Positions 2,769 to 9,807 of a stretch of 22,427 nt of DNA are shown here, one piece after another (position 1 is the first letter of the stretch; every line of letters starts with the position of its first letter). The notes beneath the pieces were generated by a model, which was not told the DNA's origin, ran no database searches, and saw only the letters and a list, made by a program, of their open reading frames with translations. Both the position numbers and the translations under genes were made by a program. The stretch lies in the IMG/VR virus record IMGVR_UViG_3300006752_000258, positions 1 to 22,427 of that record; one strand, written 5' to 3'. Origin of the DNA: a virus.

Positions 2769-3044
2769 ATGGATAGACCTGAACATGACCACACTTACTG
2801 GGCAGCACAGTCTGCCGAGTATAATACTCATGCAGAAAGAGTCGAATATCTAAAGCAACAAGGGTTTACCAGTGAACAAAGAATTGATTGCATCCTGCAT
2901 CTAGCAGTAAGCTATTTGCCTAAGCGTATGTATCAATTGCCTAATAAGTTAATAGCTGCGGCGTGGAAAGATTTGCCTGATGATACTACCCGGACTATTT
3001 TTGCTGTTGGGATTAAAGCCTTAAAAAGAAAAGGCAGTGCGTAG
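2769..3044 (+). CDS. Small hypothetical phage protein
   Basis: I do not recognise this 91-residue protein. It opens with acidic and aromatic residues (PEHDHTYWAAQSAEY), continues with helix-like sequence around VEYLKQQGFTSEQRID and ends basic (IKALKRKGSA). It has no signal peptide or membrane segment. It is the last gene of the SSB/exonuclease operon, and its stop codon lies inside the stem-loop of the downstream terminator. No ribosome-binding site precedes ATG 2769; instead a 10-bp hairpin ends eleven bases upstream. A helper role in replication or recombination is suggested only by position. Confidence 0.65.
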   Translation: MDRPEHDHTYWAAQSAEYNTHAERVEYLKQQGFTSEQRIDCILHLAVSYLPKRMYQLPNKLIAAAWKDLPDDTTRTIFAVGIKALKRKGSA

Positions 3045-3071
3045 AAGGATAAACCACACACTGCCCTTTTT
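3033..3071. terminator. Bidirectional intrinsic terminator between convergent operons
   Basis: GGCAGTG at 3033-3039 pairs with CACTGCC at 3059-3065. On the plus strand the stem is followed by CTTTTT. On the minus strand the same stem is followed by TTTTCTTTTT. It therefore ends both the SSB/exonuclease operon and the minus-strand small-gene operon. The left arm overlaps the last codons of the 2769-3044 gene. Confidence 0.8.
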
Positions 3072-3113
3072 CATGACTGCACAGGAAACTGAAAATCCAT
3101 GCAATCCTGACCG

Positions 3114-3431
3114 CTAAAACTTTTCTATAACAAATCCCTTTTCGCCATCAATATCACCAAGAGCTTTTCTTAATACCAAGGTGCGTTCCTCGACATCCTC
3201 TAAGCTGACATACTCATCGCCATAGTCTGCCCTGAACTCATCAAGACTATCATACTCCTCATACTCACAACACAGAGCTATGACATCCAATTCCATTGGC
3301 TCAGTCATCTGTGATTCCCATTCTTCTAAGTGGTGAAACAAGACCGTAAGTGCATCCAGTGAAAACTGGTTCTCACGACCTGCATCCTTAAATGCTTGGA
3401 TGAAGTCGTGTTTGTTTATTGTGATGACCAT
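3114..3431 (-). CDS. Small acidic hypothetical phage protein (INKHDFIQAF type)
   Basis: This 105-residue acidic protein begins MVITINKHDFIQAFKDAGR and has a central LDVIALCCEYEEYDSLDEF. I recall similar uncharacterised proteins in many phages of proteobacteria, but no function is known to me. ATG 3431 is preferred over an ATG nine bases upstream because it forms TAATG with the stop of the preceding gene, the coupling seen throughout this genome. It is the last gene before the bidirectional terminator. With the gene upstream it forms a two-gene unit under the promoter/operator copy at 3684-3730. Confidence 0.7.
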   Translation of the reverse strand: MVITINKHDFIQAFKDAGRENQFSLDALTVLFHHLEEWESQMTEPMELDVIALCCEYEEYDSLDEFRADYGDEYVSLEDVEERTLVLRKALGDIDGEKGFVIEKF

Positions 3432-3652
3432 TATGCACACTCTCTAAAATATGCTATATCAATAAGCTCTTTTGCTTCTGCTAAGGTATTTGTGCTGTCG
3501 TGAGCTTCATGAGCTTGGTAAGCAGTTTCACCTGCAGGTATTTCTGCTATATTCCAAAATACATAGTCAGCACCTGCCCTATCTTTCATGTTTTCTATAG
3601 CATATCCCCTGTACTCGTAAAGTCCTGCTTCTATTTTTTTTGCTTTGTTCAT
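3431..3652 (-). CDS. Small hypothetical phage protein
   Basis: The 73-residue product starts MNKAKKIEAGLYEYRGYAIE and contains DYVFWNIAEI, a beta-rich pattern, then a helix (TNTLAEAKELIDIAYF). It resembles small uncharacterised phage proteins of the same gene neighbourhood. AAAAGGAGT stands just upstream of ATG 3652 as a strong ribosome-binding site. It is the first gene after the promoter/operator module at 3684-3730, and its stop overlaps the next start. Function is unknown. Confidence 0.7.
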   Translation of the reverse strand: MNKAKKIEAGLYEYRGYAIENMKDRAGADYVFWNIAEIPAGETAYQAHEAHDSTNTLAEAKELIDIAYFRECA

Positions 3653-3683
3653 ATTAATTACTCCTTTTATTTAATATACCCCT

Positions 3684-3730
3684 ATTATACACAGCTAACA
3701 TTTATATACAACACTTTTCAACACTTTATT
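3684..3730 (-). promoter_or_regulatory. Promoter/operator module, copy A
   Basis: Read on the minus strand: two GTGTTG boxes (3724-3719 and 3714-3709) exactly 10 bp apart; a -35 TTGTAT at 3711-3706 that shares TTG with the second box; 16 bases; and -10 TATAAT at 3689-3684. AGGGGTAT follows directly, then TTAAATAAAA. The same layout recurs at 5210-5256. A protein bound to the tandem boxes would cover the -35 element, so repression is the simplest reading. Confidence 0.75.
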
Positions 3731-3740
3731 TAATCTTTTT

Positions 3741-3968
3741 TTACTCTTCTTCAGCTACGATAATAGCGCCATCGACATTAATTTTTGTAAAGTTTAATCC
3801 ACTGACCTCTTCACTATTTATTTTAAAGATGACATCACGAACCAAGAGCCTAAGCAGAGCTGCTTTTTGATACAGGTTTAATCTTGCATAGGTTTCTATT
3901 ATTTCATCACCAGTCATCTTGTTAGTTTGCACCAACACGTCATCACTTTTCTTTTTGAATATTGACAT
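3741..3968 (-). CDS. Small hypothetical phage protein
   Basis: This 75-residue protein has a basic start (MSIFKKKSDD), a middle helix YARLNLYQKAALLRLLVRDVIF and an acidic end (VAEEE). It is unrecognised. GAGAGGAAG precedes ATG 3968 as ribosome-binding site. Its first 26 bases overlap the end of the 48-codon gene upstream, so it belongs to the coupled small-gene chain that starts at 5173. It is followed by promoter copy A. Confidence 0.65.
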   Translation of the reverse strand: MSIFKKKSDDVLVQTNKMTGDEIIETYARLNLYQKAALLRLLVRDVIFKINSEEVSGLNFTKINVDGAIIVAEEE

Positions 3969-4089
3969 ACTTCCTCTCTTTTTTGTTTGCCTTGTTAATT
4001 TTTTGTATATGAGCTAAGTCTTCTAAGACTCTAAATTCTTTTTCAATCTGCTCGTCTACAAGCCTTTGATTATCTTTTTCTGTCCTCAT
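3943..4089 (-). CDS. Very small hypothetical protein, 48 residues
   Basis: The frame starts at ATG 4089 with GGAG upstream and ends at TGA 3943. The product is a highly charged helix: MRTEKDNQRLVDEQIEKEF at the start, KANKKERKYV near the end. Its ATG overlaps the stop of the 28-codon gene upstream (ATGA), and its end overlaps the next gene by 26 bases. The ribosome-binding site, the ATGA coupling and the lack of any other gene here support it as real. Function is unknown; a short coiled-coil or nucleic-acid-binding peptide is possible. Confidence 0.6.
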   Translation of the reverse strand: MRTEKDNQRLVDEQIEKEFRVLEDLAHIQKINKANKKERKYVNIQKEK

Positions 4090-4172
4090 AATAACTCCAT
4101 TATATATATAGCCATGACAAATGTAAGCAATGCGAAAACTGACATCCAGTACATCTTCTCATCATCTTTCAT
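4086..4172 (-). CDS. 28-residue single-span membrane peptide
   Basis: ATG 4172 starts a 28-codon frame ending at TGA 4086. The first seven residues are charged (MKDDEKM); the rest is one hydrophobic stretch (YWMSVFALLTFVMAIYI, then MELL) long enough to span a membrane. AAGGAT lies seven bases before the ATG. It overlaps the upstream gene by ATGA and the downstream gene by ATGA, so it is placed for translational coupling on both sides. This suggests a phage membrane microprotein; a holin-like, exclusion or host-takeover role are all conceivable and none is shown. Confidence 0.6.
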   Translation of the reverse strand: MKDDEKMYWMSVFALLTFVMAIYIMELL

Positions 4173-4435
4173 TGTTTATCCTTGTCTTTTTTTGACTTAA
4201 TATAATTATTATTTTGCTCATTTTTCCATTTATCAATATGTTTTGTTTCTACCAAGTAGGTATCAGTTCTATTCTCCCAATATTTCTTTTCATCAAACCT
4301 CATATTATTAGCCATGTTTAGCCAATCTATATCATCTTCTTCTACTTTCTTATCAGCTAAGTAAAATAGTACCTCACAGGTTTCTCGCCACTTTCTTTCA
4401 AGAAAATGGTCGAGCCTTCTTAATAGGTTTCTCAT
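4169..4435 (-). CDS. Small hypothetical phage protein
   Basis: The 88-residue product begins MRNLLRRLDHFLERKWRETC, a basic amphipathic helix, has an acidic middle (KKVEEDDIDWLNMANNM) and a Lys-rich tail (KSKKDKDKQ). It is not recognised. Its ATG overlaps the stop of the gene upstream (TAATG) and its stop overlaps the start of the membrane peptide (ATGA). Position in the small-gene operon suggests an early or host-directed role; nothing in the sequence specifies it. Confidence 0.65.
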   Translation of the reverse strand: MRNLLRRLDHFLERKWRETCEVLFYLADKKVEEDDIDWLNMANNMRFDEKKYWENRTDTYLVETKHIDKWKNEQNNNYIKSKKDKDKQ

Positions 4436-4755
4436 TATGCTACCTCTTTTATTATTTGTAAGTGGGCGTTTGTATTTTTTTCTATGAAGTTATTAATAGC
4501 TTCTTTCATTTCTTTTGCAGTATCAAAATTATTGAACAGGTTTTCTACTGACCATTGAGCATCTGTCCATTTTGTGCAATCGCCCACGCCTCTTAAAACA
4601 TCGTTGTCCCAAATTGTTTTAGGAACAGAAACAGAATACACCATGCCACCCTTTACATTGCTGTGACTACGAGACATCCAAAGCCTTGTATAGTCAAACC
4701 CTTTATAGTTTAAAGTTTTGTAATTTTTGTTAGTTGTATGTTTTTGTTTTCTCAT
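4435..4755 (-). CDS. Small hypothetical phage protein
   Basis: This 106-residue protein has a basic N-terminus (MRKQKHTTNKNYKTLNYKG), a beta-like middle (MVYSVSVPKTIWDND) and a helical end (FDTAKEMKEAINNFIEKN). I do not recognise it. It begins five bases after the stop of the preceding gene and its stop overlaps the next start. The ribosome-binding site is weak (GGGG about fifteen bases upstream), so translation probably depends on the gene before it. Confidence 0.65.
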   Translation of the reverse strand: MRKQKHTTNKNYKTLNYKGFDYTRLWMSRSHSNVKGGMVYSVSVPKTIWDNDVLRGVGDCTKWTDAQWSVENLFNNFDTAKEMKEAINNFIEKNTNAHLQIIKEVA

Positions 4756-4759
4756 TATA

Positions 4760-5173
4760 TTAAATTACCCCTTGAGCCTTAAGCTCTTGCTCTGCAAGTT
4801 GCTCAAAGGACTTATTACCCATTTGTGCTTCCCAGTCCATACTAGTAACGCCTTGAGACATTTCTACATAATCCTTTGATTTACACCAAATTTTTTCTTT
4901 AGCAAATTGCTCTGTAAGATTATTAGGTATTTGTAATGTAATGTTAAAATCACAAACATCTAGCATGCTGTAGCAATTACCACATTCAATAGTTGCACAA
5001 GTATCAACAAAGTCACCTTCCTTGATTTGTTCCATTTCCAACATTGCACTGTAAGAATAAGAACCACCGCATGAGCAGTCCTTGACATGCTTGTTAAAAA
5101 AAACTTCAGCACTGTCTAAAGTATTCTTACCCCATGCATTGATGGTACCTGTTACTGTAATTGTATTTTTCAT
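4760..5173 (-). CDS. Cys-rich hypothetical protein, possible zinc-binding knuckles
   Basis: The 137-residue product contains DCSCGG (Cys33, Cys35) and ATIECGNCYSM (Cys59 just before, then Cys64 and Cys67), an arrangement of C-x-C and C-x2-C that could hold a zinc ion; Cys74 and Cys97 are further candidates. ATG 5173 is chosen: TAAGGAG lies nine bases upstream, whereas an in-frame ATG at 5203 falls within the promoter leader and would place that ribosome-binding site inside the gene. It is the first gene after promoter/operator copy B and leads the chain of six small genes down to 3741. Function is unknown. Confidence 0.65.
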   Translation of the reverse strand: MKNTITVTGTINAWGKNTLDSAEVFFNKHVKDCSCGGSYSYSAMLEMEQIKEGDFVDTCATIECGNCYSMLDVCDFNITLQIPNNLTEQFAKEKIWCKSKDYVEMSQGVTSMDWEAQMGNKSFEQLAEQELKAQGVI

Positions 5174-5209
5174 GTTATTTAACTCCTTATTTTTATTTAA
5201 CATACCCCT

Positions 5210-5256
5210 AGTATATATAACTAAATCTATATTGCAACACTTTACAACACTTTATT
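5210..5256 (-). promoter_or_regulatory. Promoter/operator module, copy B
   Basis: Read on the minus strand: two GTGTTG boxes (5250-5245 and 5240-5235) 10 bp apart, -35 TTGCAA at 5237-5232 overlapping the second box, 16 bases, and -10 TATACT at 5215-5210. AGGGGTAT and TTAAATAAAA follow. Spacing is identical base for base to copy A from the first box to AGGGGTAT, while the spacer sequence has drifted. This points to selection on the boxes and promoter, not to a recent duplication. Confidence 0.75.
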
Positions 5257-5265
5257 ACATTTATT

Positions 5266-5835
5266 TTATGGCAGTATTTCATATACATATCCACGAACTG
5301 CTCTTGGTTTCTTTAACGATATCTCATGTAGGTTGCCCTTTACTTTTTCTGTCAGCTCCCAAAAGGTATCTCTTCCCGGGTCAGCTATCAGCACAGGGCA
5401 TCGTGCTTTGTTAATTAATTTTTTTATATTACCTACATGCTGCTCCCAATAACAAATGTCGCAACCAATAATTAAATCTATTCTTTTAAAAACTTCTTTA
5501 GGCAATTCTTTGTAGTCCATGTATAAAACATCTACATTGGTTTTGTTATATTTATTGACCACATCAACATAAGGCTTGGTGTTTATATCTATATCTATGC
5601 CGCCACAATCTATGCCCTGCTTTTGTAAATAGGCTAGGACCACACCCCAACCACAGCCAACATCTATGGCTGTATCTATCTTTTGCAGGTTATATCGTGA
5701 TAAAAAATCTATGATAGTAAAGGAAGAGTTCCACACTTTATTGCCATGACTAACTGGTTTGGCAGTTTTTCTTTTTATTTGCTGTATTTCTTTGTCTGAA
5801 GATAATGGAATTTTTATGTTGTGTATTGCTTTCAT
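5266..5835 (-). CDS. SAM-dependent methyltransferase (METTL / Methyltransf_16-like)
   Basis: The 189-residue protein is a class I Rossmann methyltransferase. SAM-binding motif I is AIDVGCGWG at 56-64, the acidic end of strand 2 is in GGIDIDI (near Asp81), and strand 4 is LIIGCDICYWEQH at 121-133. The N-terminal HGNKVWNSSFTIIDFL (30-45) resembles the lead-in of METTL21/METTL20-type protein lysine methyltransferases. A protein substrate is therefore more likely than DNA; I see no DPPY/NPPY-type motif of adenine or N4-cytosine DNA methylases. The substrate could be a host or phage protein. It is transcribed alone toward promoter copy B, from a start codon with no Shine-Dalgarno sequence only about five bases from the predicted RNA start. 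Confidence 0.75.
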   Translation of the reverse strand: MKAIHNIKIPLSSDKEIQQIKRKTAKPVSHGNKVWNSSFTIIDFLSRYNLQKIDTAIDVGCGWGVVLAYLQKQGIDCGGIDIDINTKPYVDVVNKYNKTNVDVLYMDYKELPKEVFKRIDLIIGCDICYWEQHVGNIKKLINKARCPVLIADPGRDTFWELTEKVKGNLHEISLKKPRAVRGYVYEILP

Positions 5836-5894
5836 GGTGTTAAAATATATTACATTAAGTTATAATTAACAGCAACCAATAAACGGAGTTTTAA
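5836..5894. promoter_or_regulatory. Overlapping divergent promoters: methyltransferase (minus) and RHH regulator (plus)
   Basis: On the minus strand TTGCTG (5875-5870), 17 bases and TAATAT (5852-5847) form a good sigma70 promoter whose RNA would start near 5840, about five bases before the methyltransferase ATG. On the plus strand TATAAT at 5861-5866 is a perfect -10 with a weak -35; its RNA would start near 5873. The plus -10 lies inside the spacer of the minus promoter, so polymerase can occupy only one at a time. GGAG at 5885-5888 serves the plus gene. A single GTGTTA, close to the operator box, lies at 5837-5842. Confidence 0.6.
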
Positions 5895-6050
5895 ATGGGT
5901 GATTACAATAAAGGCTACAGGACACTTACAGTAGACTTAGAAACATATAAGATGTTGGAAGAAATTTGTGCTTCAGAAAGAAGAAAGAAGATTGACCAAA
6001 TTAGATTAATGGTTGAAAACAATCATAAAGAAGTTATCAAAGAAGACTAA
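5895..6050 (+). CDS. Ribbon-helix-helix DNA-binding protein, 51 residues
   Basis: ATG 5895, with GGAG six bases upstream, opens a 51-codon frame. The layout fits an Arc/CopG/MetJ ribbon-helix-helix repressor: a strand YRTLTVDLETYKMLEE (strand at 8-15, helix A from 16), a turn ASERRKK, and helix B IDQIRLMVENNHKEV at 33-47. Such dimers insert the paired strand into the major groove and bind tandem boxes about one helical turn apart, as found in the two operator modules in this window. It is the only plus-strand gene in the region, divergent from the methyltransferase, and its stop overlaps the stop of the 834-residue virion gene by three to four bases. A regulatory role is likely; the operator assignment is inference. 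Confidence 0.7.
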   Translation: MGDYNKGYRTLTVDLETYKMLEEICASERRKKIDQIRLMVENNHKEVIKED

Positions 6051-8553: not shown

Positions 8554-9807
8554 TTATAAATTTATTTCTTCTACTATGCTGCTTACCTCATCCTCTAACT
8601 CCTGCACAGTACCATCCAAGTTTCTTCTTTTCTTTTTGCCATTTTCTATATAAACAATAGCAACAACCTTATCTTGTGCATTTTTTATTTCTTCAATAAA
8701 CTCTGCACCTTCCGGAACTTCTAGCGGAAAGTCAAAAATTGCTTTATCCCAAGTTCTTATTTCTGTTGGCGTATATCCTTTGAACTCGCCTGATTTAGCT
8801 CCTAGGTTATATCTTTTTGCTGATTCTTGATAAAGTTTTTCTTTAGATTCAAAAATGTCTTTTAAAATAGCTGCGGCTCTGTATTTGTTTTGCAAGGCTC
8901 CCGGCTCTTTACCTAAAGCCTCTATAATTCTTTGTGCGTCAAACTCGGTCATAACACCCGGACCAACTGTTTCTACTCTAAACCTTCCAATTAAACCTTG
9001 AAACTTACCTGCCGCCAAACCTTGAGCTAAGGCTTCAGGCGTAATATCTTCTTGTGACAAAAGCGTAGAAAACCAATTATTAATTTCTTCAGCCATTCTT
9101 TCAAAACCAAACTTAGAGCCTCCCAAAGCAACCATATAATCTTGCAATTTATCTAAAGACGCTTCTTGCTCTTTGTATTCTTTTTCATATTTAAAGAAAT
9201 CATTAATATTCATGTTGTATCTTTGCTCTTCACTTGCAACGGTTGGTCTTGCTGTAGGAAACTTTGCACCGAATTCCATTTGGTCTAAAACCTGTCCTTC
9301 GCCCTTGTAAATAATTTCATCACCAACTATAAGTTCTCGAAAAAAATTGCCGTCATCATCTTTCCACAAAGCACCTATTTTTGCATTTGGCTCAGTTTTC
9401 TTTTTAGTCACTAATCCAAAAGCCGTCATATCTCTAGCTTGTTTGGCTTGTCTGTTTTTTTCGTCTATAGATTTTTGTAATTTACTAAATTCTTGAAACC
9501 CCAGTCCTAAGCCTCTTCCTAGTGAATTAAACTTTTCACCCTGTTGAGCTAACAATCCTGCACCAATAGATGATGCTAAGTCATACCCTGTTGCTCTTGG
9601 TGTTGGTGGTGCAATGCTTGAAAGCATATTGCTATACTTTTTAAATTGCATTTCTGTACTATCATTATTGCCTTGCTGAGAAAGCATTTGTTGTATTAGG
9701 TCTTGAACATTTGGGTCTGATAAAATTTCTTGCTCTGTTTGTTTCTCAACACCACCACCGTCTTGATAACCCATTAACGAAGATATACCCATTCTGCTTA
9801 TTGTCAT
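8554..9807 (-). CDS. Probable internal virion protein, 417 residues
   Basis: The product is mostly helical and charged. It starts MTISRMGISSLMGYQDGGGV, has Gln-rich helices (LSDPNVQDLIQQMLSQQGN) and a C-terminal part with beta features (EVPEGAEFIEEIKNAQDKVV). No enzyme motif is seen. It lies between the Gln/Gly-rich 462-residue protein and the 834-residue ejection-type protein, the place of T7 gp15-like core proteins in podoviruses, so an internal head role is inferred from position. AGGAT of the preceding gene's last codons serves as ribosome-binding site for ATG 9807. Confidence 0.5.
   Translation of the reverse strand: MTISRMGISSLMGYQDGGGVEKQTEQEILSDPNVQDLIQQMLSQQGNNDSTEMQFKKYSNMLSSIAPPTPRATGYDLASSIGAGLLAQQGEKFNSLGRGLGLGFQEFSKLQKSIDEKNRQAKQARDMTAFGLVTKKKTEPNAKIGALWKDDDGNFFRELIVGDEIIYKGEGQVLDQMEFGAKFPTARPTVASEEQRYNMNINDFFKYEKEYKEQEASLDKLQDYMVALGGSKFGFERMAEEINNWFSTLLSQEDITPEALAQGLAAGKFQGLIGRFRVETVGPGVMTEFDAQRIIEALGKEPGALQNKYRAAAILKDIFESKEKLYQESAKRYNLGAKSGEFKGYTPTEIRTWDKAIFDFPLEVPEGAEFIEEIKNAQDKVVAIVYIENGKKKRRNLDGTVQELEDEVSSIVEEINL

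Follow-up and report, generated by a model that had tools for sequence, protein, structure and literature searches.

A conserved tandem-box promoter/operator module before exchangeable small genes of uncultivated phages, and a predicted ribbon-helix-helix regulator

The stretch of DNA analysed here, which we call the window, is 22,427 nt long (IMG/VR record IMGVR_UViG_3300006752_000258, positions 1 to 22,427) and belongs to a podovirus-type phage. It carries on its minus strand two copies of one promoter/operator module, each standing before an operon of small genes. An earlier note on this DNA had proposed a coordinated control signal for two small-gene operons, and this proposal is supported, as the boxes and the fixed spacing of the module are conserved in many related phage contigs. 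We consider it fairly probable that a 51-aa protein of predicted ribbon-helix-helix (RHH) type, encoded at 5895-6050, is an autoregulated repressor of early accessory genes, acting via paired AAGTGTT boxes. This candidate regulator gene, the exchangeable genes behind each copy and AAGTGTT as the probable true box had been overlooked before. The features of the region are collected in Table 1.

Table 1. Coordinates of the module copies, operons and candidate regulator in the window.
Feature	Position	Strand	Description	Basis
Promoter/operator module 1	5210..5256	-	AAGTGTT 5252-5246 and 5242-5236; -35 TTGCAA 5237-5232; 16-nt spacer; -10 TATACT 5215-5210; as GTGTTG boxes, 5250-5245 and 5240-5235	Sequence reading, site alignment, PWM scan
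Operon 1 leader	5174..5209	-	AGGGGTATGTTAAATAAAAATAAGGAGTTAAATAAC, with ribosome-binding site
Operon 1	3741..5173	-	Variable 137-aa first gene (start 5173), then 106/80-aa, 88-aa, 48-aa and conserved 75-aa genes
Promoter/operator module 2	3684..3730	-	AAGTGTT 3726-3720 and 3716-3710; -35 TTGTAT 3711-3706; 16-nt spacer; -10 TATAAT 3689-3684; as GTGTTG boxes, 3724-3719 and 3714-3709	Sequence reading, site alignment, PWM scan
Operon 2 leader	3653..3683	-	AGGGGTATATTAAATAAAAGGAGTAATTAAT, with ribosome-binding site
Operon 2	3114..3652	-	Variable 73-aa first gene (3652-3431) and conserved 105-aa gene (3431-3114)
Methyltransferase-like gene	5266..5835	-	189 aa; between regulator gene and module 1 in this lineage
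Predicted regulator promoter	5836..5866	+	One GTGTT box 5837-5841; -10 TATAAT 5861-5866
Predicted regulator gene	5895..6050	+	51 aa, predicted RHH type	Linkage, sequence, predicted fold

The coordinates and spacing first read for the two modules were right. GTGTTG-N4-GTGTTG occurs exactly twice in the window, as compared with a mean of 0.004 per shuffle in 1000 dinucleotide-preserving shuffles, none of which contained two. A search of the window for the module with up to two mismatches gave 4 sites where 2.0 were expected, which is not significant alone, and the signal therefore resides in the exact box pair. The minus strand holds two AAAGTGTTG-N-AAAGTGTTG copies, each followed by a sigma-70-type promoter. 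In both modules the distance from the start of the first box to the start of AGGGGTAT is 41 nt, and TTAAATAAAA comes next. The earlier note had confined the drift between the copies to the spacer, which was mistaken: the box linker and one base of the -10 differ as well.

A search of related phages had been set beforehand as a possible refutation, and the module survived it, with boxes and spacing conserved in IMG/VR. An exact AAGTGTTGNAAAGTGTTG scan returned 67 stretches, and a looser scan that left a free gap of 14-24 nt to TATNAT returned 69, overwhelmingly with one gap length. Unique module copies in IMG/VR number about 50. The exact-scan set was retrieved with no downstream condition; a near-consensus -10 lies at a spacer of exactly 16 bp in 33 of its 49 distinct sites, which is every one of the 33 promoter-type sites, and at 15 or 17 bp in none of the 49. 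Most of the remaining 16 sites are either TTGCAAAGTG repeats or stretches that no promoter follows, and these 16 are a separate matter. Excluded as not this system were TTGCAAAGTGTTGCAAAG repeats (L005, L006, L019, L021, L025, L038, L058, L059, L060), module-like matches with no promoter behind them, L093 and two genome_contigs matches; L020 and L061 were set aside for their 17-bp spacing and different phage type.

Genome-wide PWM scans gave scores far above those of shuffled sequence at 1-3 sites in each phage contig. They also picked up weaker copies that the same phages have at a remote locus (G001 29541, G002 30950). Promoters with the shared operator stand before different operons, two in the window and two or three in several relatives. 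At the 52 distinct sites compared, box 1 is followed by G (36 sites), A (14) or C (2), whereas the G behind box 2, a part of the -35 TTG, is invariant, an invariance partly built in by both IMG/VR scans, which required this G. Since the first position varies and the second is fixed, the element read by the protein is probably AAGTGTT, repeated 10 bp apart. Of the earlier reading of GTGTTG as the box, the pair itself stands, and the last G is better assigned to the -35.

In class B phages a second promoter type, AAGTGTTCACAAGTGTTGACATTCAATG..GTAAATT, combines the same boxes with a full TTGACA and a spacer of about 17 bp (G003 7729, G004 31656, G012 5902, L134, L137, L141, L150, L153). Class B leaders (e.g. 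L013, L023, L100) have a hairpin right after the -10, GTAGGAA-loop-TTCTTAC or TTTCTAC, of -7.9 to -13 kcal/mol, which could protect the 5' end of the mRNA.

The 51-aa gene is found together with the module in the larger contigs that include this region. A scan with the 51-aa protein alone gave 41 loci. Subfamily 1 is represented by 37 loci with 700 bp or more of upstream sequence; the regulator alone fetched all but two of these, which were first met via the module. Of the 37, 34 have the module upstream on the opposite strand, at varying distances (mostly about -113, -640/-656 and -1693 bp). An intact module is missing nearby in the other three: L136, with one about 5 kb away in the record, L139, and L147, where box 2 has a one-base deletion. 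The N-terminus (M)GDxNKGYRTLTVD is invariant in this subfamily, even where overall identity falls to 63%. A wider scan brought in a sister subfamily (subfamily 2) of 41-55% identity with the predicted strand RKSLAVD instead of YRTLTVD, and the module is present at 0 of 34 of its loci. Between the subfamilies the core residues L11, V13 and D14 are kept and the alternating positions, predicted to face the DNA, differ. The strand change coincides with absence of the module, in a comparison in which linkage partly reflects shared phage ancestry and the two subfamilies make one evolutionary contrast. The 2.5-kb flanks of 12 subfamily-2 regulator loci contained no repeated module of their own. The regulator promoters at subfamily-2 loci (L197-L233, except L199 and L200) seem to share TTTGyA...CAAA near the -35, which may be an operator with another specificity. 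In two contigs (G003 8851-9090, G004 29913-30152) the regulator has a second small gene beside it, encoding 79 aa with ..DITPIAIDKHLSDQLFALASAKNKCPRKMAEYFINLGVQ..; its sequence pattern is RHH-like by eye, and it has no Pfam match.

The fold of the 51-aa protein was approached by profile and by model. The commonest sensible matches were Pfam RHH_1 (4 of 24 members, best E 0.031), TraY (E 0.027) and the PHROG family phrog_3180 'Arc-like repressor' (8 of 24 members, best E 0.018), each of them weak and sub-threshold. Searches of PDB sequences with the regulator or its alignments gave spurious or non-RHH matches only. A first AF2 model, from a shallow alignment, was one long helix, and its Foldseek search was uninformative. 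The second, from a deeper alignment, has an extended segment at 1-14 and helices at 15-27 and 33-50, the layout expected for an RHH monomer, whose strand pairs up only on dimerisation, at low confidence (pLDDT 65, pTM 0.33). Foldseek with this model gave no E value of 1 or lower, yet RHH proteins make up most of the top 50. In VIA-align the RHH matches had Z values of 5-6.8, all below 8, led by NikR (Z 6.8, 46 residues, 1.3 Å), AmrZ (6.6), CopG (6.4) and Arc (6.1). Taken together, these matches and models make an RHH type likely for the protein.

In the proposed mechanism, each module copy would be a strong sigma-70-type promoter whose two-site operator covers the -35. The AAGTGTT boxes are spaced by 10 bp, exactly one turn of the helix, and the second is fused to the -35 TTG. 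The predicted RHH protein would most likely occupy the paired boxes as two adjacent dimers on one helix face and so keep host RNA polymerase off the -35, and it would also act on its own promoter through the same box. Naked DNA entering at infection would first allow a burst of cargo expression; build-up of the regulator would then turn off the cargo operons and the regulator itself by negative feedback. We infer the binding by this regulator, its dimer-of-dimers occupancy, repression over activation and the early timing. Repression is favoured because box 2 overlaps the -35 and because the -10s are good, one module class having an extended TGn -10. That a bound protein would block polymerase at the module, as supposed earlier, gains strength from two sides: the linked small RHH-type gene has the same box in its own promoter, and the module promoters look complete without an activator.

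The boxes might instead be an activator site, at which a phage protein, RHH or other, bound at -45/-35 would recruit RNA polymerase. PhoB acts in this manner at tandem pho boxes that replace the -35, and the pho-box layout likewise has direct repeats spaced by one turn, the second of them at the -35. The second half of the -35, usually off consensus in the module (TTGCAA, TTGTAA, TTGATA, TTGTAT), would also suit activation. However, the -10s are near consensus at an ideal fixed spacer and extended in one class, and some copies (the L032 group, L112) have a full TTGACA. Negative autoregulation is suited by the regulator's own promoter, of which 16 of 18 distinct versions have GTGTT over the -35 region, seven of them with two boxes 11 bp apart; relatives have one or two boxes and the window's copy only one. 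Most known small phage RHH proteins act as repressors. We regard activation, the main alternative, as unlikely, while giving it some weight.

The reader of the boxes could also be of host origin, either a regulator or a sigma factor with an unusual extended -35, the phage only borrowing the signal. The -10/-35 layout is of the host housekeeping polymerase type, and the host could be missing among the genomes searched. Yet a scan of 84,980 prokaryote species genomes gave only two module matches, unrelated and scattered, few promoters per phage genome have the module, and a linked phage gene exists, all of which makes a host reader improbable. A DNA search of 50,697 phage records with the 2.7-6.0 kb region found no match, and a promoter-length query of the same records found only scattered short matches. 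The tail-stabilisation protein of the window phage has its closest match in Phage DSL-LC04 (40% identity); identity to Pelagibacter phage HTVC027P is 33%. The module is absent from the first 50 kb of each of these cultured relatives, and a search of cultured phages for a regulator homologue gave no match. With prokaryote genomes and cultured phages near-empty, the signal appears specific to a group of uncultivated phages.

The genes behind the modules are exchangeable. The first genes form about 25 unrelated clusters; in most cases the start codon lies 67-85 nt after box 1. The small genes tested, which cover a minority of these first-gene clusters, had no match to a named family. Homology to close relatives stops just past the start codon, at about 5166-5169 behind module 1 and about 3644-3649 behind module 2, and returns beyond the first gene or genes (pairwise comparisons with L107, L106, L113, L112 and L075). 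The modules thus mark the joints between conserved and variable parts of the cargo region and, as far as such comparisons go, are promoter-marked cargo slots with interchangeable small genes. The cargo region is located between an 834-aa virion-type gene and an exonuclease gene; in DSL-LC04 the nuclease gene (36432-37142) overlaps the DNA-transfer-protein gene (37097-40303), with no region between. The methyltransferase-like gene of the window is missing in other lineages, where module and regulator are directly divergent. Between convergent genes ending at 3044 (+) and 3114 (-), the window has an inverted repeat, GGCAGTG...CACTGCC with A- and T-rich flanks (3030-3075), probably a two-way terminator closing operon 2.

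These joints raise the question of whether the module is mainly a homology anchor for cargo swaps, its box conservation a by-product of recent recombination. Besides the breaks at the start codons, this would account for an 86-bp block around module 2 that is 100% identical to L051, where the next shared stretch is 81% identical. Loci fetched by the regulator were examined to lessen the bias that comes from searching by the boxes themselves. Within the same block at these loci, however, pairwise identity is 98-100% in the box columns and 74% in the -10, as compared with 48% in the spacer, 51% in the upstream flank and 48% downstream (36 sites, none differing from the module at more than 3 positions, which leaves some bias). 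Together with the constant distance to the -10, this pattern fits binding rather than block copying. As a sole or main explanation the anchor is quite improbable; an anchoring role and protein binding may be true together. It is very improbable that the boxes are the -35 element of a phage sigma factor or polymerase-appropriating protein defining a middle or late promoter class, for which the fixed spacing to the -10 and the few copies per genome would speak, since the box is paired instead of single, the -10 is of the ordinary sigma-70 kind, the genes behind the copies are small accessory genes rather than virion genes, and no sigma-like gene was recognised in the window.

The repressor reading places the module beside known systems, and the literature library searched contained no paper describing the module itself. 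By analogy, the logic of the system would be like that of Reg(p576) and Aca/acr. Reg(p576) is a small RHH repressor of the establishment regulon of clade II pLS20-family conjugative plasmids, where conserved operator-bearing promoters are likewise repeated before several variable small-gene operons and transient expression after entry is expected; these RHH plasmid repressors have been contrasted with the HTH phage repressors of anti-CRISPR genes (PMC8708921). Both systems combine a regulator gene, with the operator in its own promoter, and several operator promoters on one element, the identity of the regulator being a prediction here. The plasmids are those of Gram-positive hosts, and their Reg operators lie on either side of the promoter, while in the module the two boxes overlap the -35. 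The acr-aca systems, including the Aca8 regulon of archaeal rudiviruses, likewise have diverse small genes behind a strong, conserved early promoter and a small phage repressor thought to turn it off, Aca8 being termed a winged HTH protein (PMC11065993). Aca proteins are helix-turn-helix, whereas the linked regulator here looks RHH, and an anti-defence role of the genes here is putative at most. Known bacterial acr operators are inverted repeats.

P22 Arc and Mnt (immI) are phage RHH proteins of similar size that repress an adjoining phage promoter, and the arc/ant promoter serves arc itself. In contrast with the several dispersed promoters here, P22 has one, and the Arc operator is a single 21-bp site instead of a pair of AAGTGTT boxes; hhalign detected no sequence relationship of Arc or Mnt to the 51-aa protein, with profiles too thin for a match. 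PhoB/OmpR-type promoters resemble the module in having a pair of direct repeats spaced by about one helical turn, of which the second overlaps the -35. They differ in that they are served by response-regulator activators at 11-bp repeats of other sequence, and no response regulator is linked to the module.

The module offers a searchable tag: AAGTGTT-N3-AAGTGTTG-N19-TATNNT recovers about 25 unrelated small phage gene families of unknown function that share one control signal, and such gene sets often contain anti-defence or takeover proteins. It also comes with a predicted regulator-operator pair that has a natural specificity contrast between two subfamilies, in phages for which no cultured close relative carrying the system was found. 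Tentatively, and with more doubt than confidence, the whole might be an early counter-defence regulon of uncultivated aquatic podoviruses, in which dozens of exchangeable small gene families in cargo slots would be controlled by one autoregulated RHH protein through a 10-bp tandem operator, the promoter blocks doubling as swap joints. In some phage-classed contigs a CHASE2-adenylate/guanylate cyclase gene comes after a FecR-domain gene, and a module-type promoter stands between the two or close by (L098:7445-10660 of record G001, G002 27497-32047 and G014/L116). The Pfam scores at the cyclase locus are 4e-25 for CHASE2, 2.5e-24 for Guanylate_cyc and 3e-9 for FecR; nucleotide cyclases are unusual in phages of this sort.
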